Below, one piece after another: positions 50,147-60,823 of a stretch of DNA of 64,000 bases. The stretch covers positions 1 through 64,000 of the forward strand of contig JAQTTH010000018.1 of assembly GCA_028710895.1 (NCBI GenBank), given 5' to 3'. Source of the stretch: Paludibacter sp. Lineage in GTDB: Bacteria > Bacteroidota > Bacteroidia > Bacteroidales > Paludibacteraceae. The position numbers and the translations under genes were made by a program. How positions within the stretch are numbered: position 1 is the stretch's first letter; every line of letters starts with the position of its first letter. The notes under the pieces are model-generated. The model saw only the letters and a list, made by a program, of their open reading frames with translations, did not search any database and had not been told where the DNA came from.

Positions 50147-50264
50147 CACTTAAAGTAAGTAAAGATTCGGTGGGTGTTCATTATTAATGGGGATAAAACC
50201 GCAGGGGATTTCTATTGCCGTAAGCTACACTATCAATTCAACAGGTTTTCTGATACAATTCAGC

Positions 50265-50570
50265 AACATTATTCATCCAGAATACGTCAACTCTCATCCG
50301 TTGTGTTACAACTCTCATCCAAAATGCCGTATTCTTGTACAAGAATGCTCCATTATTCATCCAAAACGTTCCATTCTTGTACAAGAATGCTTCATTATTC
50401 ATCCAGAATGACCCCATTATTGTACAAGAATGTTCCATTATTCATCCAGAATGCTTCATTCTTGTACAAGAATGCTCCATTATTCATCCAGAATGACCCC
50501 ATTATTGTACAAGAATGTTCCATTATTCATCCAGAATGCTTCATTCTTGTACAAGAATGTTGCATTATTC
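50265..50570. repeat. Short palindromic tandem array (21-bp half units, 85-bp duplicated block)
   Basis: Two related words alternate about every 21 bp: CATTCTTGTACAAGAATG, a perfect palindrome, and CATTATTCATCCAGAATG. From 50372 the pattern becomes an 85-bp block repeated at 50457 with one difference and begun again at 50542. Open frames through it are by-products of the repeat and shift frame, so it is probably not coding. It lies at the left border of the cassette-like region. Confidence 0.85.
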
Positions 50571-50924
50571 CCCCGTTTTATAGCTACTTTATACAAAATA
50601 AGGGCTTATTTACAGGGTTTTAAACGAAAACACCCTTAGATGAATGAGCCTCTCCCCGGTTTAGAATGCAAGCTCAGTGGTTCGCCGAAATTAGGTTTGT
50701 ATTTATATCTGTATTTTATACTGTATAACATAAAATTACCACACTCTTTTAGGTTAAATATAAAAATGTTATTTGTATATTTGCAAACGTTCAACAGAAA
50801 TCAATAGCACATATTTCGGGTAATAAAATGGTATGCGCTATTGAAAGTAGAAAATACAGTAAATATATGTGCTGTTGCGTATATTTGGGGGTTAGGGGTT
50901 ATTGTAAAAAAAAGAAAGACAGAG
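50571..50924. other. Left border of the cassette-like region
   Basis: A plus-strand -7 box TATATTTG at 50776-50783 lies just before the first cassette-type site (50789-50896), in the place where an array promoter would be expected. Its -33 box is poor. No gene is seen before 50925. Confidence 0.45.
50789..50896 (+). repeat. Cassette site, second type, full copy
   Basis: The element starts GTTCAAC, folds through CAATAGCACATAT (50802-50814) pairing with ATATGTGCTGTTG (50865-50877, one mismatch), and ends with GTTAGG. Its right 65 bp recur at 52710-52774 with few changes. Confidence 0.6.
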
Positions 50925-51983
50925 ATGAAGCACGTAATAATGACATATATATTTACACTGACAAGCAGCATTTTATATGGGCAAAATTCTGAAGCTTGGA
51001 CTGCTTTTTATAATAAAGACTCAACATTGATTGGCTATAAAGACAACTTAGGTATTGTGAGAATTGAACCAAAATTTAAAGGTTTTACAACAGCAAAAAG
51101 ATTTGAGAATATTATTGCTGTTTCGGCCGAAAATTATAACTCTTATTACTTGACAAAATCGGGTCGAATTGTTGGCAAGGACAGTTTACATGTTTTCGAC
51201 AATGGAGCTGATTGTGAGAGTGAAGGTTTTATTCGTTTTAGAGACAAAAAGACAGATAAAGTTGGGATGTTTAATAGGAATGGAGATATTATAATTCCTG
51301 CTGAATATAATGATTTGACAAGAGTCATAAACGGAATGGTAGTTGGATTAAAAAATGGAAAGAAAAAAATCGAGGGCGAACATTCTCGTTTTATAGGTGG
51401 AAATGTGTTGCTTATTGATACCACTAACAGAGTTCTAATTGGCAGTTTTAAATATGATGACAATATAGATTTTTACTCTTTAGAAATTTCAAATCAGCTA
51501 AATACAAAAGAAAACAGACAAAACTTCAAGACTATAAATGGTGAATATTTCTCATTTATCGACTATGAAAAAGAGTTTAAATCTTGGTTAAAGTCAGCTT
51601 TACTTGAAAACTTTACGAAAGAAAATCTTATTAATGCCAGTTTCAAAGAAATTTACATTTGGAAAGAATCAGAAGGCTGGACAAGTGAATTAAAAGAAAG
51701 TTATATTGAACATAATTTTGAACTTATCAAATCGAAGCTACTTCAACTGAACAATAAAGGCTGTGATTATAATATTTTCAACGAAGGACTTAATTTTTAT
51801 ATTTACGACTCATTAGAATTTAAAGATTACTTTAATGATTGCGGCGAATCAAAAGATTGGAAATATCCAATAAAGAACATTGTCATAAGTTACAGGAATA
51901 AGAAGAATTTAGTACAAGATCAGTTTGAGTTTTTACGGACAGACAATGGGTACAAACTAATTTCTTTGACAACGGAAAAATAA
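50925..51983 (+). CDS. Exported WG-repeat-like protein
   Basis: I start at MKHVIMTYIFTLT because it gives a signal peptide (ILYGQNSE), leaving 352 residues. The first 200 show WG-type repeats (STLIGYKDNLGIVRIEPKFKGF, DKVGMFNRNGDIIIPAEYNDL). The rest is unassigned. It is the first ORF of the array, lying between a second-type site and the first 136-bp element, with the AT-rich codon use of its neighbours. Function unknown. Confidence 0.72.
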   Translation: MKHVIMTYIFTLTSSILYGQNSEAWTAFYNKDSTLIGYKDNLGIVRIEPKFKGFTTAKRFENIIAVSAENYNSYYLTKSGRIVGKDSLHVFDNGADCESEGFIRFRDKKTDKVGMFNRNGDIIIPAEYNDLTRVINGMVVGLKNGKKKIEGEHSRFIGGNVLLIDTTNRVLIGSFKYDDNIDFYSLEISNQLNTKENRQNFKTINGEYFSFIDYEKEFKSWLKSALLENFTKENLINASFKEIYIWKESEGWTSELKESYIEHNFELIKSKLLQLNNKGCDYNIFNEGLNFYIYDSLEFKDYFNDCGESKDWKYPIKNIVISYRNKKNLVQDQFEFLRTDNGYKLISLTTEK

Positions 51984-52000
51984 CAAGACAAATAACAACC

Positions 52001-52136
52001 GCTAACACACGCTCTTTGTTCATTGGCTGGTTGACCCCGATAGATCGGGACAAGTTGTCATTTAGCAGGTTTTGATCCCGCAAATGAAACATGCCGTAAA
52101 ACGGTACCGCCAATGCCCATAGTTCGGTGGTTAGGC
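52001..52136 (+). repeat. attC-like cassette element, copy 1
   Basis: The 136-bp element begins GCTAACACACGC and ends GTTAGGC, so its ends pair. Inside, CATTGGC pairs with GCCAATG. Between these lie hairpins CCCGAT/ATCGGG and ACCGT/ACGGT. It starts 17 bases after the stop of the WG-repeat gene and ends 15 bases before the next start codon. Confidence 0.7.
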
Positions 52137-52151
52137 ACAATACAAAAAAAA

Positions 52152-52568
52152 ATGAAAGGAACTTGGATAGGAACATATAAATATGTTGGTCACCCCAATT
52201 TTGAATTCAATGAAAGAGAAACATTGTTCACCATTATCATTACGGAATATGATGGGGTGAACTTCAAAGGGACTGTAACGGACAATCTTGAAAGTGGTGG
52301 AACAAAAGGAGAAGGAACAATTATTGGCAGAGTAAGAAATGGTAAAATAGAATTTATAAAACATATGCCAACAATGACACTTTCGACAAAAGATGGAAAT
52401 CGAATTGAGATTTTCAAAAAGCATAAACCTATTTATTACTCAGGTAATTTAAGTAATGGTAGTTTTGAAGGTAAATGGAAGATTAAAGGAGGAATTATAT
52501 TTAATAAAACTATTGTAGGTATTGCAGTTAGGACAACTGGAGAGTGGAAAATGCATAAAACAATCTGA
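52152..52568 (+). CDS. Small cytoplasmic protein of unknown function (array ORF)
   Basis: The 138-residue product (start MKGTWIGTYKYVG, preferred over an upstream ATG that lies within the element) is basic and beta-rich. It resembles lipocalin-like small proteins in its GTWIGTYKY opening and the GSFEGKWKI strand. The stop codon lies directly before the ATG of the next short ORF (TGAATG). No family recognised. Confidence 0.55.
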   Translation: MKGTWIGTYKYVGHPNFEFNERETLFTIIITEYDGVNFKGTVTDNLESGGTKGEGTIIGRVRNGKIEFIKHMPTMTLSTKDGNRIEIFKKHKPIYYSGNLSNGSFEGKWKIKGGIIFNKTIVGIAVRTTGEWKMHKTI

Positions 52569-52709
52569 ATGAAAAAATCGATAACCATATTGCTAATATT
52601 ATTTTCATTAACCATGTATGGACAAGAAGAAAAAACAATCATGTTTAAAACATTGTATTTCAATTTAGAGAGTAAAGTTGTTAGAACAGAAATTAACATA
52701 ATAGAATGA
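52569..52709 (+). CDS. Truncated exported protein, 46 residues
   Basis: The frame starts directly after the preceding stop and encodes a clear signal peptide (MKKSITILLILFSLTMYGQ) but only 27 mature residues. The stop TGA sits at the border of a second-type repeat (52710). The gene probably lost its 3' part when that repeat was joined to it. Confidence 0.5.
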   Translation: MKKSITILLILFSLTMYGQEEKTIMFKTLYFNLESKVVRTEINIIE

Positions 52710-52774
52710 TATGCGCCATTGAAAGTAGAAAATACAGTAAATATATGTGCTATTGTGCATATTGGGGGGTTAGC
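52710..52774 (+). repeat. Cassette site, second type, right part only
   Basis: These 65 bp match 50832-50896 at nearly every base (TATGCGC, GAAAGTAGAAAATACAGTAA and ATATATGTGCT words) and end GTTAGC. The left arm present in the first copy is missing, so the site is a truncated or recombined form. Confidence 0.7.
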
Positions 52775-52792
52775 GGATAGTTTAGAAAAAGA

Positions 52793-53425
52793 ATGATTAA
52801 GTGGTTTATGGCAGACAAGAAAAAAGATTACAAAGAGAGACTTTTGAATGCTTTCCCTGAATCTTTGAAACAAGACGCTATTGTCGTTATTGACATATTG
52901 CCTCTTGACAATTGCATGGTAAAACTTTGCGACGGAGAAACTCATAAAGTAGACAACTTAATTCATTCCTCGACTATAACTGTTCAGTTGAATGGAAAAC
53001 TTTTGATAATTCCATACAGACTATATTTCAACGAACCAGACAAAGAAAAAGAAGACAAATTAACTGAGAAACAGAAAACCATTTTAAATTGTATTTATCT
53101 AAGACACCATAACGGTTTCCTAAGACAAGAAAGACTGGAAAGGCTTGCTGATAGTAAAGAATACTGGGTTATACCTTTTACATTTCAACTTTTAGGCGAA
53201 TACGTTTTTGAAATTTTGGAAGTCTTAGAAAAACACGTAAACGAAAAAAATATTGAAAACTATATTCGGTATAAACTTGAAAATCCGCGGTGTTTTCAAC
53301 AAACTGAGAGTAGAATGATTAGTTATTGGAACGAGTATTACCGGCGACCACTGTTTCCGAAACTAAAAGACTATATCGGCAAGAAACTGATAGACAGAAT
53401 AAAACAACAAAAAACGACCGCATAA
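52793..53425 (+). CDS. Protein of unknown function, 210 residues (array ORF)
   Basis: The product is charged and soluble. It has no signal peptide, and has helical sections such as KTILNCIYLRHHNGFLRQER and a C-terminal KLKDYIGKKLIDRIKQQ. The start could also be the ATG six codons later (MADKKKDYK). It is framed by a second-type site at 52769 and an attC-like element at 53420. The AT-rich codon use is like its neighbours. Not recognised. Confidence 0.6.
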   Translation: MIKWFMADKKKDYKERLLNAFPESLKQDAIVVIDILPLDNCMVKLCDGETHKVDNLIHSSTITVQLNGKLLIIPYRLYFNEPDKEKEDKLTEKQKTILNCIYLRHHNGFLRQERLERLADSKEYWVIPFTFQLLGEYVFEILEVLEKHVNEKNIENYIRYKLENPRCFQQTESRMISYWNEYYRRPLFPKLKDYIGKKLIDRIKQQKTTA

Positions 53426-53556
53426 CACACGCAATGGTCATTGGCTGGTTGACCCCGATAGATCGGGACAAGCTGTGTATTTAGCAGGTTTTGCTCCGGC
53501 AAATGAAACATACCGTAAAACGGTTCCGCCAATGCCCATAGTCTCGGTCGTTAGCA
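53420..53556 (+). repeat. attC-like cassette element, copy 2
   Basis: The 137-bp element starts GCATAACACACGC and ends GTTAGCA. It keeps CATTGGC/GCCAATG, CCCGAT/ATCGGG and ACCGTAAAACGGT and is very similar to copies 1 and 3. It overlaps the stop codon region of the preceding ORF by six bases. Confidence 0.72.
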
Positions 53557-53577
53557 ATAATTAAAAAAAACAAAAAT

Positions 53578-54165
53578 ATGACACAAGACTTCAGCGAATC
53601 AATGTCAAACCTAACTGACGAAGAACTAATAAAAATAGTGACGATTGACAGAAATGATTACCAAACAGAAGCGGTTGCAGCCGCTGAGAAAGAACTTAAA
53701 ACAAGAAACATTGACGCAACAAAAATTGAGTCAGTAAAACTTGACATTGAAGAGAAAGAAACAAAAGACAAAGAATTTGAATCAAGTATTGTAAGTTCCT
53801 GGACAAGACTAATTCATACAGTCATTGACTTTTTTGGATTCATAATAATTGCAGTAATATTGAGTCATATTTTACAGCTATTTTACAATCCTAGCGACAA
53901 ACTCACAATTAGACTTCTTGGCTACGCACTGTTACTAGTTTCCTTTTTTTTATACTTTGTATTTATGGAGTACAAATTTCAAAAAACGATTGGAAAATTT
54001 CTAACAAAAACAAAAGTAGTTATGGCTGACGGTAGACGGCCAGAGTTAAACGAAATAGTCATTAGAACAGCTTGCCGACTAATTCCATTCGACTACATTT
54101 CATATATTTTTACGAAAAATGGATTTCACGACAAGTTTTCAAACTCAACTGTAATAAGAGACTAA
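53578..54165 (+). CDS. RDD-family membrane protein (array ORF)
   Basis: The 195-residue product has a soluble acidic N-terminus (about 1-75) and a C-terminal RDD domain: SSWTRLIHTVIDFFGFIIIAV, two or three membrane segments, then KTIGKFLTKTKVVMADGRRP. RDD proteins are small membrane proteins, some acting as ion antiporters. It is in the array between the element at 53420 and a short GCTAACC/GGTTAG site at 54176. Confidence 0.7.
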   Translation: MTQDFSESMSNLTDEELIKIVTIDRNDYQTEAVAAAEKELKTRNIDATKIESVKLDIEEKETKDKEFESSIVSSWTRLIHTVIDFFGFIIIAVILSHILQLFYNPSDKLTIRLLGYALLLVSFFLYFVFMEYKFQKTIGKFLTKTKVVMADGRRPELNEIVIRTACRLIPFDYISYIFTKNGFHDKFSNSTVIRD

Positions 54166-54489
54166 AAAACCTACTGCTAACCCTAATTATTCCAAGTTTG
54201 CACGAGTTGGTTAGTTCAAGTTTAGCGAAGCGTAATCCGCCAGTTGTCGGACAGGCTTTGGACTGAGAACAAATCAGTCTATTGACTAATAACAGAAGTT
54301 GAAAATGGTACATGCCGATATATCGGCACAATAAATTATGAGTCCAAGTCTCCGCTCCGCTCAGACTTGAACTAAGCACAGGGTGCAAACCTGGAAGAAA
54401 AAGGGAATTTAAAGGAAATAAGCGTCATTTAGCGAACAAATTATCGAGACAACTCGACTTAAATACAAACAAATATCAATAAGACAAGA
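54166..54489. other. Gene-free stretch with mini-site, palindrome and second repeat family
   Basis: GCTAACC (54176-54182) and GGTTAG (54209-54214) form a minimal cassette-like site. A repeat shared with 60751 follows (54213-54286). TGCCGATATATCGGCA (54313-54328) is a perfect 16-bp palindrome. ACTTGAACT near 54365-54373 is the inverse of AGTTCAAGT at 54213, so about 160 bp could fold back. Confidence 0.65.
54213..54286 (+). repeat. Second repeat family, copy 1
   Basis: AGTTCAAGTTTAGCGAAG followed by ATCCGCCAGTTGTCGGA and CTTTGGACTGAGAA recurs at 60751-60823 with few substitutions. It contains the small hairpin TCCG..CGGA. Confidence 0.8.
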
Positions 54490-54924
54490 ATGAAAACAAA
54501 AACGACTATTTTATTACTGATTACTTTACTGACTTGGAGTTGTAACGGTAAATTCGACAAAATCTCTGACGACAAATTTATTGGACTTTGGGAAATCAAA
54601 GGTGCAGACGTAACGGAAGGAATTCAGATTAAAATTCAGAGAGAGAATGGTAAACTAATCGGACGTGTTTATAAACTTAACGACAACAAATATGTGAAAC
54701 TATTTGTAGATAGTAATGAAGTGTTTGTTGCTGGAATTGAAAGAAAATCTAACTATCAATTCAAACTGACAGAAAACAAAGTTGGAAAAACATTATTCTC
54801 ATTATACGGGCAAAAAACTTCACAAGAATTTGAAGTACAATTCATTGATGACAACACTATTGGTTTAGCTCTTGAAAGTTCGAGTCCAGTTCAGTCAACG
54901 AGAATCTATAAGAAAGTGAAGTAA
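54490..54924 (+). CDS. Small lipoprotein of unknown function (array ORF)
   Basis: The 144-residue product has a lipoprotein signal (LLTWSCNGK, Cys18). The mature part is a compact beta-rich domain (FIGLWEIKGADVTEGIQIKIQ, then LIGRVYKL) similar in style to lipocalin-like cassette proteins. No family recognised. It lies after the mini-site region. Confidence 0.6.
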   Translation: MKTKTTILLLITLLTWSCNGKFDKISDDKFIGLWEIKGADVTEGIQIKIQRENGKLIGRVYKLNDNKYVKLFVDSNEVFVAGIERKSNYQFKLTENKVGKTLFSLYGQKTSQEFEVQFIDDNTIGLALESSSPVQSTRIYKKVK

Positions 54925-54984
54925 ATCCGTTCGAAAACTGATTGAAGTTCAGAAAAAATGAAAATTAAACACCATTAATCTGCA

Positions 54985-55314
54985 ATGGATAAGACAAAGA
55001 AAAAAGAACTAAACTTAAAATATAAGTTCGATTTTAATCAATTACAAGAATTGGTCAATTCATTTGACCCTATTTCTCTAATTGAAGGTGGCGCACCTGA
55101 CGATGAATATGACTGTTTGACAGAACAAATTCTTTCATATGTTTACAAGAAAAAAACGAAAACAGAAATGGAAGATTTAGTCAGACACGAAATTGAACAC
55201 CATTTTGGACTTGTAGTTGAAGAAAAGTATAAGGAGAAATTTAGAACTGACATTGAAGAATTTATCGAAACTGTATATGACAAATTCGAACTGAATGAAA
55301 AACAAAACACCTAA
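54985..55314 (+). CDS. Small acidic protein of unknown function (array ORF)
   Basis: The 109-residue product is acidic, soluble and mostly helical (KKELNLKYKFDFNQLQELVN, EEFIETVYDKFEL). It has no signal peptide or cysteines of note. It ends one base before an attC-like element begins. Size and charge would fit an immunity or antitoxin protein, but there is no evidence beyond that. Confidence 0.55.
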   Translation: MDKTKKKELNLKYKFDFNQLQELVNSFDPISLIEGGAPDDEYDCLTEQILSYVYKKKTKTEMEDLVRHEIEHHFGLVVEEKYKEKFRTDIEEFIETVYDKFELNEKQNT

Positions 55315-55315
55315 C

Positions 55316-55452
55316 GCATAACACACGCAATGGTCATTGGCTGGCTGACTCCGATAGATCGGGACAAGCTGTGCATTTAGCAGGTTTTGCTCCCGCAAAT
55401 GAAACATACCGTGTAACGGTACCGCCAATGCCCATAGCCTCGGTGGTTAGCG
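55316..55452 (+). repeat. attC-like cassette element, copy 3
   Basis: The 137-bp element starts GCATAACACACGC and ends GTTAGCG. The inner stems are kept. ACCGTGTAACGGT replaces the ACCGTAAAACGGT hairpin, so pairing is preserved while the loop changed. The bases after it (GTTATTGTAAAAAAAAGAAA) are the same as after the site at 50891. Confidence 0.75.
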
Positions 55453-55476
55453 GTTATTGTAAAAAAAAGAAAGACT

Positions 55477-55761
55477 ATGAATGAACTGATTGACATAGAA
55501 TATTTGATTTGACTGGTTAAACAACAAGAAGCAGAAAGACAAGATATAATTTCTGCATTACAAAATTGCAAAGGAGGACATTGGTCAGAAAATAGATATT
55601 ATAGTTTTGTTGACTCTAAGAATCCAAATCTACCTAATTCAGACTGGCAACATGAGTAATGCATTGTTTTAAAACAACATGAAAAAGGGGATATTGTAAT
55701 TGACCTGCTTAAAGATGGTCGAATTGGTGGTATTGAATTTATTGACCTAATTGACAAATGA
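55477..55761 (+). pseudogene. Broken array ORF with two in-frame stops
   Basis: One continuous frame of 95 codons encodes a coherent soluble protein (QQEAERQDIISALQNCKGGH, GDIVIDLLKDGRIGGIEFID) but is cut by TGA at 55510 and TAA at 55657. The frame ends TGA overlapping the next start codon (ATGA), which shows it was once translated and coupled to that gene. Simple decay is likely. Readthrough is not excluded. Confidence 0.65.
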
Positions 55762-56192
55762 AATTGAGACAAGAAATTAAAATAAAGATACTTGATATTG
55801 ACGACGAAGAAACTCAATTTCAAATCAAGTTGACAAATGGTATAAACTCGACTACCATTAATTTTTATGGCTATTTGGACGAGTTTGAAAACTTTGCAAA
55901 TGGACTACTAACTTTTCCCAAAACCATAAATAACACAGTGAAATATGAACTCGGTGAAGTTGGAAATAACTGGGCTTATTACATCCTATTAAGAGTATTT
56001 TGCTACGAGACAAATGGTTATTCTGCGATTCATATCAAGGTTGACAATAACAAAACTGAACCAAAAACAAACAAATCCGAATTTTATATCACAACATATC
56101 CTGCCTCTTTGAACAAATTTGGACAACTATTAAAAGAGTGGAATCCGAAAATTGAGAAAGAAATCGTATGGATAGCAGAATGTATAAATTGA
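55758..56192 (+). CDS. Protein of unknown function, 144 residues (array ORF)
   Basis: The soluble product has beta strands at the N-terminus (IKIKILDIDDEETQFQIKL) and a tryptophan-rich end (LLKEWNPKIEKEIVWIAECIN). Its start overlaps the stop of the broken ORF by ATGA, so the two were a translationally coupled pair in one cassette. Such pairs occur in toxin-immunity systems, but no toxin motif is visible. Confidence 0.6.
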   Translation: MKLRQEIKIKILDIDDEETQFQIKLTNGINSTTINFYGYLDEFENFANGLLTFPKTINNTVKYELGEVGNNWAYYILLRVFCYETNGYSAIHIKVDNNKTEPKTNKSEFYITTYPASLNKFGQLLKEWNPKIEKEIVWIAECIN

Positions 56193-56203
56193 AAGCCCTA
56201 ACC

Positions 56204-56344
56204 GCTTACACACGCTCGTATGTTTATTGACTGGCAGACCCCGATAGATCGGGACAAGCTGTGCATTCCGTCAGTTTTGCTCCCGCAAATGAAACATACC
56301 GTGTAACGGTGCCGCCAATGCCCTTAGTCTCGGGAGGTATGGGC
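56204..56344 (+). repeat. attC-like cassette element, copy 4 (mutated ends)
   Basis: The left box reads GCTTACAC instead of GCTAACAC and the right box GTATGGGC instead of GTTAGGC. CATTGGC has become TATTGAC. The central hairpins are retained. The site looks inactivated. Confidence 0.65.
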
Positions 56345-56417
56345 AAGTTAAAAAAAAGAAAACAAAACTGTCAAACTACAACTATTCAACAAAAAAACAC
56401 GAAAATAGAAAAGAAGA

Positions 56418-56939
56418 ATGTCCAAAAATAGACTAAAGAAAAGACCTATAAAATTTGTTCAACAAATAAGCAACAAGAAGGATAATTCGAAGAAAAAAAA
56501 GAATTTAAAGGCAATTGCAATACTAACAGTTGTTTTTATAGTTTTTATTTTCTCATTTAGTTATTATGTAGTAAATGAACACAACTCAATTCGCGAGACA
56601 GTAAATAATAACCCAAAAACAATTTCAGCAAAAGTGACTGACATTTCAAGAGGAAAAGGAAGTCATACTGCATTATATGAATTCGTTACTAACGGGAAAA
56701 AGTATACCGGAAGAACTTTTCAAACTTATAAAGGACAAATTGGAGACATTATTTCTGTCGAATATTCGATAGTCAAACCGGAGGTTAATATATACTGTGA
56801 AGACACAACTCCTGAGACTTTCTTTGACGATGTATTTATTTCGACTTTGGAAGTTACAGGTGTTTTTATAGTTTTTCTTTCAGTAGCACTACTATATTTG
56901 AAACTCAAAAATCCAAAGAAAAGTATATGGGAGTTATAA
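56418..56939 (+). CDS. Small membrane protein, DUF3592-like (array ORF)
   Basis: The 173-residue product has two membrane segments (about 31-52 and 140-160) flanking an extracytoplasmic loop with TISAKVTDISRGKGSHTALY and GKKYTGRTF, the arrangement of DUF3592 proteins. The N-terminus is strongly basic (RLKKRPIKFVQQ). Function unknown. It lies between a mutated and a shortened element. Confidence 0.6.
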   Translation: MSKNRLKKRPIKFVQQISNKKDNSKKKKNLKAIAILTVVFIVFIFSFSYYVVNEHNSIRETVNNNPKTISAKVTDISRGKGSHTALYEFVTNGKKYTGRTFQTYKGQIGDIISVEYSIVKPEVNIYCEDTTPETFFDDVFISTLEVTGVFIVFLSVALLYLKLKNPKKSIWEL

Positions 56940-56988
56940 CAGCAATTGCAAAAAATAAATTCAACCCAAACTGAAAACCTAAAAACCA

Positions 56989-57068
56989 GCCCATAACACG
57001 CGCTTTTATGCTCATTGGCTGGCTGACCCGTAGCAATTGGGACAAATGTTTATAGTCTTGGTCATAGC
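56989..57068 (+). repeat. attC-like element, shortened copy 5
   Basis: The left part (GCCCATAACACGCGC, then CATTGGCTGGCTGACC) and the right end (ATAGTCTTGGTCATAGC) remain, while the middle hairpins are lost. The right box GTTAGC has become CATAGC. Confidence 0.6.
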
Positions 57069-57130
57069 AGTAAGTGTGAATGTTAAAATACAGAGATTGA
57101 TTCAATGATTAAATAATAAAAGAAGGTTTT

Positions 57131-57604
57131 ATGGCTGACTATAATTGGGAAGAAATTTTCAAAGGAAAAACTGAAAAAGAATTGGTTGATATTTACAAAG
57201 GAAAATCATTTTTAGATTTCGAAGCTGAAATATATGCCGGTTTAGAATTGAAAAATAGGAATTGTGATTTCAATAAGATCGAACAATTTCATATTGCAAA
57301 AGAAGAAAAGCTGAAAAAGGAGATCGCTGATTTCCAGAATCTCGACTTTAAAAGTTCCGGATATTTAAAGAAGCAAATAATATATTCTCTTGGAATTATT
57401 TTTGTCTTAATAGTATTGATTACCAACGATTTTAATTCGAATTTCAGATTTTATGAAGCACTAATTTATTTAGTTGTTTTTGTCGTTTCAATCCTTACTT
57501 CTAAATGGAGTTATAAGCGATTTGTAAGAAAAAAAGAGGAATCCATAAAAACTAAAATTGAATTGCTCAATAAAATGAATCCTCTTTTCCGTCCAAGTCT
57601 GTAG
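57131..57604 (+). CDS. Membrane protein of unknown function, 157 residues (array ORF)
   Basis: The soluble N-terminal part contains TEKELVDIYKGKSFLDFEAE and LELKNRNCDF, a pattern also seen in the RDD-type array protein (EELIKIV..AAEKELKTRNIDATKIE). Two membrane segments (about 82-97 and 104-122) follow. The shared N-terminal pattern may link cassettes as relatives. No known family. Confidence 0.55.
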   Translation: MADYNWEEIFKGKTEKELVDIYKGKSFLDFEAEIYAGLELKNRNCDFNKIEQFHIAKEEKLKKEIADFQNLDFKSSGYLKKQIIYSLGIIFVLIVLITNDFNSNFRFYEALIYLVVFVVSILTSKWSYKRFVRKKEESIKTKIELLNKMNPLFRPSL

Positions 57605-57728
57605 TTTTACATTCGGTGTCTGCTGAAAGTCTGTGTAAAACGGAGACTCTGTACTAAAAGGATTTGTAATCTGAAATAAAAAAAATATGCAGTAAAAAGT
57701 ACAAGCTTTAGCAGGTGAAATTTATAAA

Positions 57729-57920
57729 ATGGACATTACAGAAGTATCAAAAGGACCTGACAAATTTTATATTTGTTTTAATGAGAAAATGAAATACAGA
57801 TTAAGAGTTTCTGAAGACAATTACACTAAATATAAAGAAGGAGACAAAATCAACTTAAAAGTTTATAAAGGTAGATTTTGGGGATATTATTTAGTTGACA
57901 AGTATGAATTTAAATACTGA
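57729..57920 (+). CDS. Small protein, 63 residues (array ORF)
   Basis: The small, beta-rich product (FYICFNEKMKYRLRVS, INLKVYKGRFWGYYLVDKYEF) has no signal peptide. The upstream gap of 124 bases lacks a cassette element. Whether it is translated is uncertain, but codon use is like its neighbours. Confidence 0.4.
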   Translation: MDITEVSKGPDKFYICFNEKMKYRLRVSEDNYTKYKEGDKINLKVYKGRFWGYYLVDKYEFKY

Positions 57921-58042
57921 AACACCTCTAGCCCCTAACACATTTCTAGGTACAACAAGCAGGGGCGTGCTATTTGAGAAGTATAAAAAACAAGAAAACA
58001 AATCTACTTTTAACGTAGAATACAAACAAAAAAACAACTGAT

Positions 58043-58510
58043 ATGAATACAAAAAGAGTTACTATTTTAATAATAATCGTTGCGATTTCAATATTTTTCG
58101 CATATAATTTTTTGACGGGTAAAAATTCAGAGAATAAAAATCCTGATACAAATGCATTTATCGGAAATTGGGTTGGCGATAAACATGAAAATAATAGTTA
58201 TGTAACTTGGATTCAGAAAAGACTATCAGATGGCACTTATACAATCTTTTTTGTTACAATTAAAGAGAATAAAATAATAAGAGATATTGAAACTGGAAAA
58301 TGGTGGATAAAGGATGGTAAATTTTATGAAATCTCACAAAATGCAATGACAGAGCCAAGCATATACTATTATAAGATTATTTCAAATGACAGCATAATGT
58401 TTAGTAGCACGTCCACAGATTATAAGTTCGTTAACAAAAGAATTGAAGAAAACAATTTTGATTCAACATATATAAATAAGCCAAAAGAGACTCTTAATTA
58501 CAAACTGTAA
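58043..58510 (+). CDS. Membrane-anchored protein of unknown function, 155 residues (array ORF)
   Basis: An N-terminal membrane segment (VTILIIIVAISIFFAYNFL) is followed by a beta-rich extracytoplasmic domain (FIGNWVGDKHENNSYVTWIQ..). The FIGxW opening is also present in the array lipoprotein at 54490, again suggesting lipocalin-like folds are common here. It precedes the next gene by 22 bp. Confidence 0.55.
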   Translation: MNTKRVTILIIIVAISIFFAYNFLTGKNSENKNPDTNAFIGNWVGDKHENNSYVTWIQKRLSDGTYTIFFVTIKENKIIRDIETGKWWIKDGKFYEISQNAMTEPSIYYYKIISNDSIMFSSTSTDYKFVNKRIEENNFDSTYINKPKETLNYKL

Positions 58511-58532
58511 AAGAAAATAAATTTAGACAGAC

Positions 58533-59483
58533 ATGAACAGAGTGATTTTAGGATTTATCGTACTACTTTTTTTGAGTTGTGGTCACTCGAAAAAAGACTT
58601 TGTTGCTGTCGACTTTAGAGAAATTAAAGACTGCAATAAGAATGGGATTCCGAATGATTCTTCAGTTGAATATTATCCAATTGAATTATTTAGAGATACA
58701 TTTTCAGGATTCTTCAACGGTTACGACATTTTTAGAAATTCCGATATGAGTAAAAAACAATTTGCTCGTATTTTTAAAGTTAACATAAAAACGTTGAAAG
58801 ACACTTTCGAGGTGGTGACTAAAGACACCAAATTATTAAGCTTGTATTCATACATGTATTATAAAATGCATGAATCAGTTCTGTATAGTCACTATTTAGA
58901 CAAAGAGGTTTACAGATTGACCTCGATAAGTTCGAATTATCATTCTCCCTTAGTGGTGACAATTGAAAAATACAGAGACAGTGTTGTGCTAATAACAAAA
59001 CAACTAAATAGGTCTGTAGACTTTCCTTTTATAAAGAACCCTGGACCCGTTGTATATGTTGCGCCTATAAACCCAAACAATTTAGACAAAAAAGAAAAAC
59101 AACGATGTAAGGCAATACAAAAGTCTCTAGAAGATTCGATTGCAAAAATATATAGAAATTGCAACTATCATTTAGTTATGAATAAACGAGTGAGAATTTC
59201 GAGAGTTGCTTGGGATTCTTTAGAAGTTCTGGTTGACTCGGCAAAATTCTGGAGATCGAAACCTGAATTGAATTTAAGCCAAGTTGAAGCAGATGGCTCA
59301 AGAATGATATTTGAAGGACATTCTGAAAATGGATACCAGATAAGGATTATACCAAGTCTACATTTGTATAGAGAACGGAACGTAAAAGCAGGTAGAGACA
59401 ATTATGATTCGAAGAACAATTACACGAAGATTTTCAGATTTATTGCGAGACAAACAAACTTGAAAGACGAAGACATATATTGA
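58533..59483 (+). CDS. Predicted lipoprotein, 316 residues (array ORF)
   Basis: The signal LLFLSCGHSK places the lipidated Cys16. The mature protein is mixed alpha/beta and unassigned. It follows the 155-residue gene at 22 bp, so they are probably co-transcribed. The left half of an attC-like element begins 11 bases after its stop. Confidence 0.6.
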   Translation: MNRVILGFIVLLFLSCGHSKKDFVAVDFREIKDCNKNGIPNDSSVEYYPIELFRDTFSGFFNGYDIFRNSDMSKKQFARIFKVNIKTLKDTFEVVTKDTKLLSLYSYMYYKMHESVLYSHYLDKEVYRLTSISSNYHSPLVVTIEKYRDSVVLITKQLNRSVDFPFIKNPGPVVYVAPINPNNLDKKEKQRCKAIQKSLEDSIAKIYRNCNYHLVMNKRVRISRVAWDSLEVLVDSAKFWRSKPELNLSQVEADGSRMIFEGHSENGYQIRIIPSLHLYRERNVKAGRDNYDSKNNYTKIFRFIARQTNLKDEDIY

Positions 59484-59493
59484 ATAAAAAACC

Positions 59494-59530
59494 AGCCCAT
59501 AACACACGCTCGTCATTGGCTGACTGACGT
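59494..59530 (+). repeat. attC-like element, left part only, copy 6
   Basis: GCCCATAACACACGCTCG followed by TCATTGGCTGACTGACG matches the left side of the other elements. The hairpins and right box are missing. Confidence 0.65.
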
Positions 59531-59611
59531 GAATTCTATGTTTAAATCTAAATTAATTCGTTCAGAACAATGAACGTAATAAATAGGTACAAACAACTTA
59601 ATTTTAAAGAA

Positions 59612-60673
59612 ATGAAAGTCAAATTAATAGCAATTGTTCTTATTCTGTGTGCTTATATATCCGCTCAAACAGGTTTCCGTCCGGGGTATCTTATAACTCA
59701 AAACGGGGATACAGTGAGGGGTCAGATTTTCTATAAAAAGATAGAAGACATGTGCAAAGTATGTACAATCAGAATTAAAGACAGTACAATAGATTATACT
59801 CCGTCTGAAATTTCCGGTTTTAGATTTATTAATGGAAAGTATTTTGTTTCAAAAAAACTAGAAGATAAAACAGTATTTCTGGAATTTTTAGTAAAGGGAA
59901 AAGTAAATGTTTACTTTAGTACCGATTTGTATTCTGATCATTACTATATTGAAAAAGATAGTCTGGGGCTAACAGAGTTGCCTTATAAGGAAGAGTATAA
60001 AACTAAAGATAACAACGAAGTTTTAATTAAGTCAAAAAAACATTTCGGATTACTAACCTACTATATGCAAGATGCAATCGGATTAGAACCTGAGATTCTG
60101 TCGATAAAAACACCTGATGAAAAAAATCTGATTGCTTTGGCTAAAAAATATCACAAGACAGTTTGTAATGGTGATAATTGTATTGTATATGAAAATACTC
60201 CTCCGGGATTGAAGGTAAATCTTGAATTCTCAGCAGGACTTGAAAATTTTCCCGGATATGGAAATGGATTAAATCCAACCTGTGCATCAACTAATATATT
60301 TGCTCATTTTTGGCTTCCTGCTTTTAGTGAGGATTGTTTCTTAAGAACTGGAATTAGATACGCTTGGGTTAAATTGCCAGAGGATAATTCGTTGTCTACA
60401 TCGGCATCGGTTTTCAGAATTCCAATTCAATTGGAATATGTTGCACCAACCAGGTTGATTCAACCCAAAATGGCAATAGGGGCAACTCTTTATCCAACCA
60501 CATTTGGTCCGTTTAATTTTCCTGTTACCTCAGCCATGGCAGGCATAGACATCAAACTCAGCAAAAAATATTTTCTTTCAATAGAATACGACATTGACTT
60601 TGACTCCGAATATTTTGTGATAAAGAGCGTTGGGTCCAATGCGCTTACTATCGGATTCAATGTCTCACTTTAA
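59612..60673 (+). CDS. Exported outer-membrane-type protein, 353 residues (array ORF)
   Basis: I start at MKVKLIAIVLILCAY, 14 codons inside the longest frame, because it gives a signal peptide (CAYISAQTG). The first part has YLITQNGDTVRGQIFYKK, a pattern common in Bacteroidota exported proteins. The second half has aromatic beta strands ending VGSNALTIGFNVSL, like a small barrel. It closes the array. Function unknown. Confidence 0.65.
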   Translation: MKVKLIAIVLILCAYISAQTGFRPGYLITQNGDTVRGQIFYKKIEDMCKVCTIRIKDSTIDYTPSEISGFRFINGKYFVSKKLEDKTVFLEFLVKGKVNVYFSTDLYSDHYYIEKDSLGLTELPYKEEYKTKDNNEVLIKSKKHFGLLTYYMQDAIGLEPEILSIKTPDEKNLIALAKKYHKTVCNGDNCIVYENTPPGLKVNLEFSAGLENFPGYGNGLNPTCASTNIFAHFWLPAFSEDCFLRTGIRYAWVKLPEDNSLSTSASVFRIPIQLEYVAPTRLIQPKMAIGATLYPTTFGPFNFPVTSAMAGIDIKLSKKYFLSIEYDIDFDSEYFVIKSVGSNALTIGFNVSL

Positions 60674-60750
60674 ACTTCTTGCTGAACAAAGTATATTAGT
60701 ATTCGTTGTAGTCCTTTTTTAATCCAAATATAGGAAGATAAACTATCTTT

Positions 60751-60823
60751 AGTTCAAGTTTAGCGAAGTCTTATCCGCCAGTTGTCGGATAAACTTTGGA
60801 CTGAGAATTAATTAGTCTATTGT
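60751..60823 (+). repeat. Second repeat family, copy 2 (right border of the array)
   Basis: The sequence matches 54213-54286 with few changes: AGTTCAAGTTTAGCGAAG, ATCCGCCAGTTGTCGGA and CTTTGGACTGAGAA are intact. It marks the right end of the region of odd genes. Confidence 0.8.

Follow-up and report, generated by a model that had tools for sequence, protein, structure and literature searches.

A probable integron lineage of Bacteroidota with its own tyrosine recombinase, and an integrase-less cassette array in Paludibacter sp.

The window analysed here is a 64 kb stretch of a Paludibacter sp. genome (4.9 Mb in 41 contigs) and contains an array of genes separated by copies of an element that resembles the attC site of integrons. 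We conclude that the array very probably belongs to an integron lineage of Bacteroidota that has its own integrase and that the window holds an integrase-less, partly decayed member of it, similar to a CALIN (a cluster of attC sites without an integrase). The sites form one family, the ends of each cassette are complementary, the stems covary, homology extends over cassette-sized units, and in relatives an integrase gene, an attI-like site and an array are linked. An earlier note, made from the sequence of the window alone, had recognized a gene-cassette array in which an attC-like site follows each gene, and this is borne out by the end complementarity, the stems, the homology units and the strand of the open reading frames (ORFs). 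It had offered either a CALIN or a different cassette system of Bacteroidota; the second describes the array better than a plain CALIN does, since relatives combine a distinct integrase and an attI-like site with an array of the same kind.

The comparison covers 213 distinct sites, giving 99 distinct adjacent pairs, from the genome of the window, its relatives and public records. Read as the reverse complement, the letters following the GTTA of one site correspond to those preceding the TAAC of the next, with exact agreement over 3 nt in 72 of 99 pairs; position by position, the complementarity amounts to 80–89% over five positions and 31% at the sixth. The two ends of a single site, used as a control, are complementary in nine of 99 cases, and 2000 shuffles gave a mean of 9% and a maximum of 18%. 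This complementarity between adjacent sites implies that each cassette bears its own inverted ends, TTANNNNN...NNNNNTAA(C). Integron cassettes likewise carry their own inverted ends, from which the circular form rebuilds the site. In the window, the ends pair in four of six intervals, in one of these with a one-base deletion; the ends of cassette 1, GTTAGGGGTTATTG and (as the reverse complement) GTTAGCGGTTGTTA, agree at seven of ten nucleotides beyond GTTA. Cassette 3 shows no in-register pairing (5/10 nt), and a complementary end was looked for in cassette 2 and not found. The constant GTTAGC terminus of the earlier note has to be abandoned, as the letters after GTTA vary (GTTAGGC, GTTAGCA, GTTAGCG) and are already part of the following cassette, and the RYYYAAC and GTTRRRY ends that it described occur in 35 and 27 of the 213 sites, respectively. 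The longest ORF lies on the strand of the site in 151 of 182 cassettes.

Homology over 250 nt or more links 34 pairs among 230 distinct stretches between sites, and in some pairs it spans from GTTA to TAAC. Along its entire length, cassette 5 of the window (55446–56209) shares 86–87% identity with a cassette of Bacteroidales UBA1309 (L155), from GTTA to TTAC in the window and to TAAC in L155. Homology also runs from GTTA to TAAC between two contigs of one genome (L088 and L089) and between a Paludibacter-genus genome (L062) and a metagenome-assembled genome (MAG) labelled Flavobacterium (L126); the last two come from the same metagenome, so that the Flavobacterium label may be a binning error. 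In a fourth pair (L053 and L119) the homology begins 55–80 nt inside and continues to TAAC, and the two ends differ in step (GTTAGCAGC/GCTGCTAAC versus GTTACCAGC/GCTGGTAAC). A blastn comparison of the flanks of the latter three pairs gave only matches of 17 and 33 nt, with one of the six flanks too short and L155 masked. In the examined pairs, gene and following site start move together between differing flanks, and the movement of elements apart from genes, which the earlier note had named as grounds for giving up the cassette model, was not seen. The other homologous pairs begin or stop mid-stretch, where a site was missed or is absent. Gapped flank identities of 0.74–0.79 were rejected as a sign of homology because random upstream pieces give 0.65–0.81. 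The cassette ORFs (117 of 147 distinct ones scanned) match 101 Pfam families with at most five members each, including TPR proteins, DNA methyltransferases, AbiEii and Fic.

The six copies of the element listed in the earlier note were all found at their places in the window. Three of them (52003, 53423 and 55319) are intact, the fourth is mutated at both ends and two are truncated. A covariance model (R1) trained on 43 sites, of which the window supplied three, recovers five of the six copies; the stub at 59500 is recognized by motif only. With one mismatch allowed, the motif TAACACACGC occurs seven times in 64 kb (six within the array) versus 3.2 expected, and the motif alone is therefore weak evidence; the long copies are beyond chance, with E values down to 3.5e-54 in BLAST comparisons among the window copies. 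An Rfam scan of the window gave no hit above gathering scores. The genome of the window contains 32 BLAST matches (E ≤ 0.01), some of them half-sites, on 12 contigs, several at contig ends. The outer ends of the sites are conserved and the centre is variable, with copies in this genome ranging from stubs of 25 and 37 nt to ~175 nt. The CCCGAT/ATCGGG hairpin, described in the earlier note as kept, is no conserved core: the 21-nt piece containing it is present in four of 43 sites, all from the genome of the window, and is also spanned by BLAST matches in a few genus genomes (e.g. G017, G004 and G013).

The sites follow the attC plan of inverted outer boxes, spacer, inner stem and variable centre, with a predicted hairpin whose outer stem NNNNNTAAC/GTTANNNNN is separated from the inner stem by an unpaired spacer. 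Of 162 arm pairs, 100 are CTATG:CATAG, nine CTAAG:CTTAG and three CTATG:CTTAG, and 50 lack one or both 5-mers; the duplex of a site's own arms has a value of −12.35 versus −10.03 for permuted arms (standard deviation of permuted means 0.12). In the 43-site alignment, the proposed structure, which was derived from this same alignment and is hence biased towards it, has 86% of cells paired versus 80% after shuffling and 22–36% after sliding by 1–3 columns, and 39 cells with double changes versus 11.7 after shuffling. RNAalifold predicted zero pairs on a MAFFT alignment of the sites, probably because the variable centre misaligns. Folded alone and compared with shuffled sequences, four window copies have z scores of −1.5 to −2.8, and the fifth, which is truncated, shows no such folding (z +1.4). 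The bottom strand, which in attC sites folds better than the top strand, has the greater stability in 193 of the 198 sites of Paludibacter type and in 69 of 209 control pieces of cassettes.

The tyrosine recombinase that the earlier note had proposed to seek elsewhere was found upstream of arrays of the same kind in relatives and not in the genome of the window. Four such proteins of ~570 residues (L105, L164, L175 and L192), identified by searching ORFs around the arrays with known recombinases, are each encoded 5′ of an array on the same strand. By profile comparison their closest solved relative is the integron integrase IntI4 (E = 5e-46; 6e-49 with a larger profile), with XerA next, and the IntI4 match takes in the C-terminal SPL tail. 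Against the integron-integrase model TIGR02249, the scores of two array-linked integrases are 210 and 222 bits, under the cut-off of 265; with NF040815 (cut-off 220) the scores are 218–232 and one of the two new-family proteins tested passes. The R, K, H, R, H and Y positions of tyrosine recombinases are invariant in 66 relatives. The K-box is 63–64 residues (in one case 68) from HxxR in 51 of 52 rows of the new family, with one row unmeasured, versus 105–107 in 19 of 21 canonical IntI rows, with two unmeasured and eight of the 19 also matching at 63 or 146; L289 and L361, which have no HxxR motif, were left out of this comparison. The IntI insert (~42 residues) is absent from the new family and appears as a gap in the IntI4 alignment. 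In a tree of 43 rows, a reduced set without XerA, the new family (31 rows) makes up one clade (95/80), ten IntI a second (100/99) and two Xer a third (100/99).

A wider search gave 5893 proteins at E ≤ 1e-40 among 8000 scored candidates; where one of the 120 listed carries a name from its source, this is mostly XerD or tyrosine-type recombinase, and some relatives of the new integrase may not serve cassettes. An AlphaFold model of the Paludibacter form shows three repeated N-terminal domains, with a mean pLDDT of 78.7 and a pTM of 0.41 that make their arrangement unsure. The structure comparison was confined to the catalytic part. HARP, a DNA-fork binding domain, matches weakly and under the Pfam cut-off in 33 of 66 members (E up to 0.5, best 0.0039), and comparison with the N-terminal part of one member gave E = 0.041.

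The gene of the new integrase is followed by a GTTA that opens the first cassette and is preceded by a YATAYA-like box (by eye); in Paludibacter, genome-specific repeats also precede this GTTA. The letters after it match the end of the first cassette over 9 nt, including GTTA, in L260, L261, L263, L105, L336, L338 and L340; the match was not found in L339, L269 and L264, and L265 has only one, 4.5 kb away. In a scan of 48 integrase loci, one of which (L337) is probably the canonical IntI of genome G064, 20 contain a perfect 5-nt match between attI-like site and cassette end, 47–246 nt past the last codon, versus 4.4% when points within these loci are picked at random (P = 4e-15). The covariance model detects 27 sites in 39 loci: 20 fall in the 14 loci that hold the new integrase, all downstream of it and on its strand, and seven in loci without it. 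In these 14 loci, the 49 kb lying upstream of the integrase contained no R1 site. The order integrase, attI-like site, array recurs in several families across the phylum. A similar match lies on the 3′ side in three and on the 5′ side in five of 21 canonical IntI loci, so that the array orientation of the new system is not unique to it. TAnnTTTG is the −7 promoter consensus of Bacteroidota, and boxes resembling it lie 3′ of the integrase stop codon in several relatives (by eye).

The array of the window (Table 1) lacks an integrase, as the earlier note had seen: neither a canonical IntI above the cut-off nor a new-family member at E ≤ 1e-60 was found in its genome, and a tblastn search for an integrase remnant in the window and 14 loci of its genome gave 0.44 as the best E value. 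The array is therefore best read as one that lost, or never had, its own integrase. Between a 728-residue receptor-like ORF and attI-like site 1, where the integrase would be expected, lie tandem repeats with spacings of 21 and 42 (50245–50566). The earlier note had overlooked both attI-like sites (50808–50894 and 52699–52772) and the decayed site at 54178. The identity of the two sites as attI rests mainly on an architecture shared with integrase-adjacent sites. L375 (G019) matches site 1 at 73% identity over 88 nt and L378 (G035) at 82% over 44 nt; both are short loci without an integrase. Over 50 nt, site 1 is also 76% identical to the integrase-adjacent site of G026 (L386), and most of this match is cassette leader. 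Site 2, in mid-array, resembles an attI-bearing cassette. The leading ORF of cassette 5 (55478–55760) has in-frame stops and is a decayed gene. A 74-nt repeat unlike the site occurs twice in the window (54211–54284 and 60749–60822; 88% identity between copies), and a sequence like it lies inside the variable centre of a cassette site near position 3430 of L051.

Table 1. Features of the cassette array in the window
Feature	Position	Strand	Details
TATATTTG box, possible cassette promoter	50776..50783	+	Read directly; matches TAnnTTTG; 5′ of attI-like site 1
attI-like site 1	50808..50894	+	Closing GTTA 50891–50894; no adjoining integrase; repeat architecture as in relatives (by eye)
Cassette 1	50891..52006	+	ORF 50928–51983; weak WG-repeat match, under Pfam cut-off
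attC-like site 1, full	52003..52133	+	R1 62.6 bits, E 2.8e-14
Cassette 2, truncated, without own site	52130..52698	+	ORF 52152–52568
attI-like site 2, within array	52699..52772	+	87% identical to attI-like site 1
Cassette 3	52769..53426	+	ORF 52793–53425; no domain in Pfam scan
attC-like site 2, full	53423..53553	+	R1 76.3 bits, E 8e-18
Cassette 4, RDD-family membrane protein	53550..54181	+	ORF 53578–54165; Pfam PF06271, E 3.8e-15; ends agree at 6/10 nt
Divergent, decayed site	54178..54405	+	TAAC at 54178; inverted arms 54181–54221 and 54365–54405; no closing GTTA; holds 74-nt repeat
Two ORFs between decayed site and site 3	54490..55314	+	ORFs 54490–54924, 54985–55314
attC-like site 3, full	55319..55449	+	R1 75.8 bits, E 1.1e-17
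Cassette 5	55446..56209	+	ORF 55758–56192; ends agree at 8/10 nt
attC-like site 4, mutated	56206..56339	+	TTAC for TAAC, GTTA broken; R1 38.9 bits, E 3.9e-8 (model match 56207–56339)
Cassette 6	56337..56997	+	ORF 56418–56939; start GTATGGGC versus reverse complement of end GTTATGGGC, one base missing
attC-like site 5, internally deleted	56994..57066	+	R1 19.5 bits, E 0.004
Further ORFs	57131..59483	+	ORFs 57131–57604, 57729–57920, 58043–58510, 58533–59483; TAACACA remnant at 57936
attC-like site 6, 5′ stub only	59500..59540	+	Motif only

In the genus sample, the element is present in 20 of 36 genomes, the integrase or part of it in 13, and both in six; among 247 genomes of the phylum the element is found in 29 and the new integrase in 45. 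In six of the eight phylum genomes that hold both, the integrase is followed at 1–14 kb by a site on the same contig and strand. Exact matches to an 18-nt piece of the site were found in at least 110 stretches of a species-genome collection, mostly from Paludibacter or other Bacteroidota, with some titled as other phyla that may be mis-binned. Exact site matches are also found on MAG contigs labelled Proteobacteria, Sulfurospirillaceae, Kosmotogaceae, Clostridia or Bacilli (L111, L117, L123, L125, L130, L187, L190 and L195), which could reflect mis-binning or true transfer, and sites on 16 IMG/VR viral contigs (L211–L226) are possibly phage-borne cassettes or mislabelled contigs. A blastn search of plasmid and phage records (E 1e-5) did not find the element. 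Sites with cassettes are present in two Myroides records that carry no MAG label (sp. NP-2 and sp. 1354; L182, L184 and L206), which are possibly cultivable.

An ordinary CALIN, in which standard attC sites are served by a canonical IntI elsewhere and the new recombinase is incidental, is an unlikely alternative, even though the hairpins are attC-like, the two integrases are related and NF040815, passed by one of two new-family proteins, is named 'site-specific tyrosine recombinase/integron integrase'. Canonical IntI exceeds the cut-off in 70 of 247 phylum genomes, one of which (G064) has four sites 3.8–6.4 kb upstream of it (L337) and also holds a new integrase with its own site; yet no canonical IntI exceeds the cut-off in any of the 36 genus genomes, sites lie near it in one phylum genome versus downstream of the new integrase in six (tables compared by eye), and the attI matches adjoin the new integrase. 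Slightly less probable still is that the new recombinase is a passenger or serves a transposon or prophage and that XerC/XerD or another enzyme moves the cassettes. Array-rich genomes without the new integrase would fit this, such as the single-contig G016, for which no integrase was recognized beside its arrays (by eye in six stretches, and separately by phmmer) and none was found genome-wide at E 1e-60, as would the genome of the window, where the best scores with the IntI model belong to XerC- and XerD-like proteins. However, integrase, attI-like site and array keep their order in several families, the attI-like site is joined to the following cassette end, and the 49 kb upstream of the integrase contain no R1 site in the 14 loci. 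MITE (miniature inverted-repeat transposable element)- or REP (repetitive extragenic palindromic)-like repeats spreading between genes and mimicking cassettes are very improbable, since for all their dispersal over 12 contigs, variable centres and hairpins, homology extends over the stretch between sites, flanks are unrelated in the three testable pairs, the variable end letters pair across the gene and not across the element, and integrase and attI-like site are linked to the arrays.

Several observations weigh against a Bacteroidota integron lineage with its own integrase. Besides the four sites beside canonical IntI in G064 and the arrays without a new integrase in the window's own genome, two of six window intervals are unpaired at their ends, and the sites share descent, so that site counts are non-independent. 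No attI match was found in 28 of the 48 integrase loci, most of which have at most 1.5 kb of downstream sequence, and about two of the 20 matches would be expected by chance. The attI-like sites of the window have no strong sequence match to any integrase-adjacent attI. In the genus there is no association, the element being present in six of the 13 genomes with the integrase and in 14 of the 23 without it, and the eight phylum genomes with both compare with about five expected; genome-level co-occurrence was given up as evidence, with no clear association in either sample. This lack of association could stem from fragmentation of the assemblies, divergence of sites and the presence of relic arrays. 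The preference for the bottom strand was dropped as a general property, as this strand is the more stable in ten of 19 distant sites and the other in nine. Finally, neither excision nor joining nor expression of a cassette has been observed.

In the proposed mechanism, a cassette would consist of one gene or a few, with TTANNNNN at the 5′ end and NNNNNTAAC with the hairpin site (mostly ~125 nt) at the 3′ end. In the excised circle, the two variable ends would meet and pair to complete the attC-like hairpin. The XerA/IntI-like recombinase, encoded 5′ of the array and in the same direction in relatives, would then join the hairpin to the attI-like site shortly 3′ of its own gene, with exchange at or beside G|TTA, and new cassettes would enter first in the array. 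Binding of the folded site and joining to attI at G|TTA are proposed by analogy with integrons (PMC8138268 and PMC3053210). We infer the role of the new integrase in recombination, the single-stranded nature of its substrate, the exact position of the cut and the use of the promoter.

Somewhat more speculatively, and with the balance of evidence tilting modestly in its favour, this second integron lineage of Bacteroidota would recombine folded sites without the IntI insert; the hairpin or the attI repeats might be read instead by the three N-terminal domains of the Paludibacter branch, which have a ββαββα fold and are weakly HARP-like, and cassettes would be exchanged among Bacteroidota as a large pool of unannotated genes. 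If the proposed lineage is real, the class Bacteroidia possesses a separate system for collecting cassettes, whose integrase often goes under the name XerD and which searches built on the IntI insert would miss; it would also add a large reservoir of mobile genes without known function. Cassette recombination at folded sites would then need no insert, contrary to the essential role reported in PMC8138268. Such arrays may also explain the frequent contig breaks that coincide with them in these genomes.

Among known systems, the CALIN corresponds in state to the window array and to several genus genomes, although it is defined by the attC model of IntegronFinder; a dedicated model found five sites here, and no integrase was found. 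The independent movement of a short element that characterizes a MITE was not found in the pairs compared. From XerA, XerC, XerD and the proteins of NCBIfam NF040815 (recomb_XerA_Arch) the new integrase differs in its linkage to attI-like sites and arrays, and in the tree the Xer proteins encoded by the window's genome group apart from the new clade. The second attI-like site within the window array recalls the Delta-attI-type gene cassettes of mobile integrons (PMC12901181). The IntegronFinder 2.0 paper names Chlorobi, Ignavibacteriae and Salinibacter as the sources of complete integrons in this group, and a description of the present system was not found in the portions seen of the open-access PMC literature, a scope that leaves aside subscription papers and preprints. 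The canonical integron (e.g. Vibrio cholerae IntI4 with its VCR sites) is similar in its array of single-gene cassettes, each a gene followed by a hairpin site, in the attI site beside a tyrosine recombinase and joined to the first cassette (in relatives here, the window having no integrase), and in the profile match to IntI4. In canonical integrons, too, the outer stem is complementary between a cassette's own ends. The new integrase differs in forming a separate clade without the IntI insert, the array is located 3′ of the integrase gene (as is also indicated in three of 21 canonical loci), and the core letters mostly deviate from RYYYAAC/GTTRRRY. The system works like an integron and is outside the canonical family by two tests of its integrase, the TIGR02249 cut-off and the insert.

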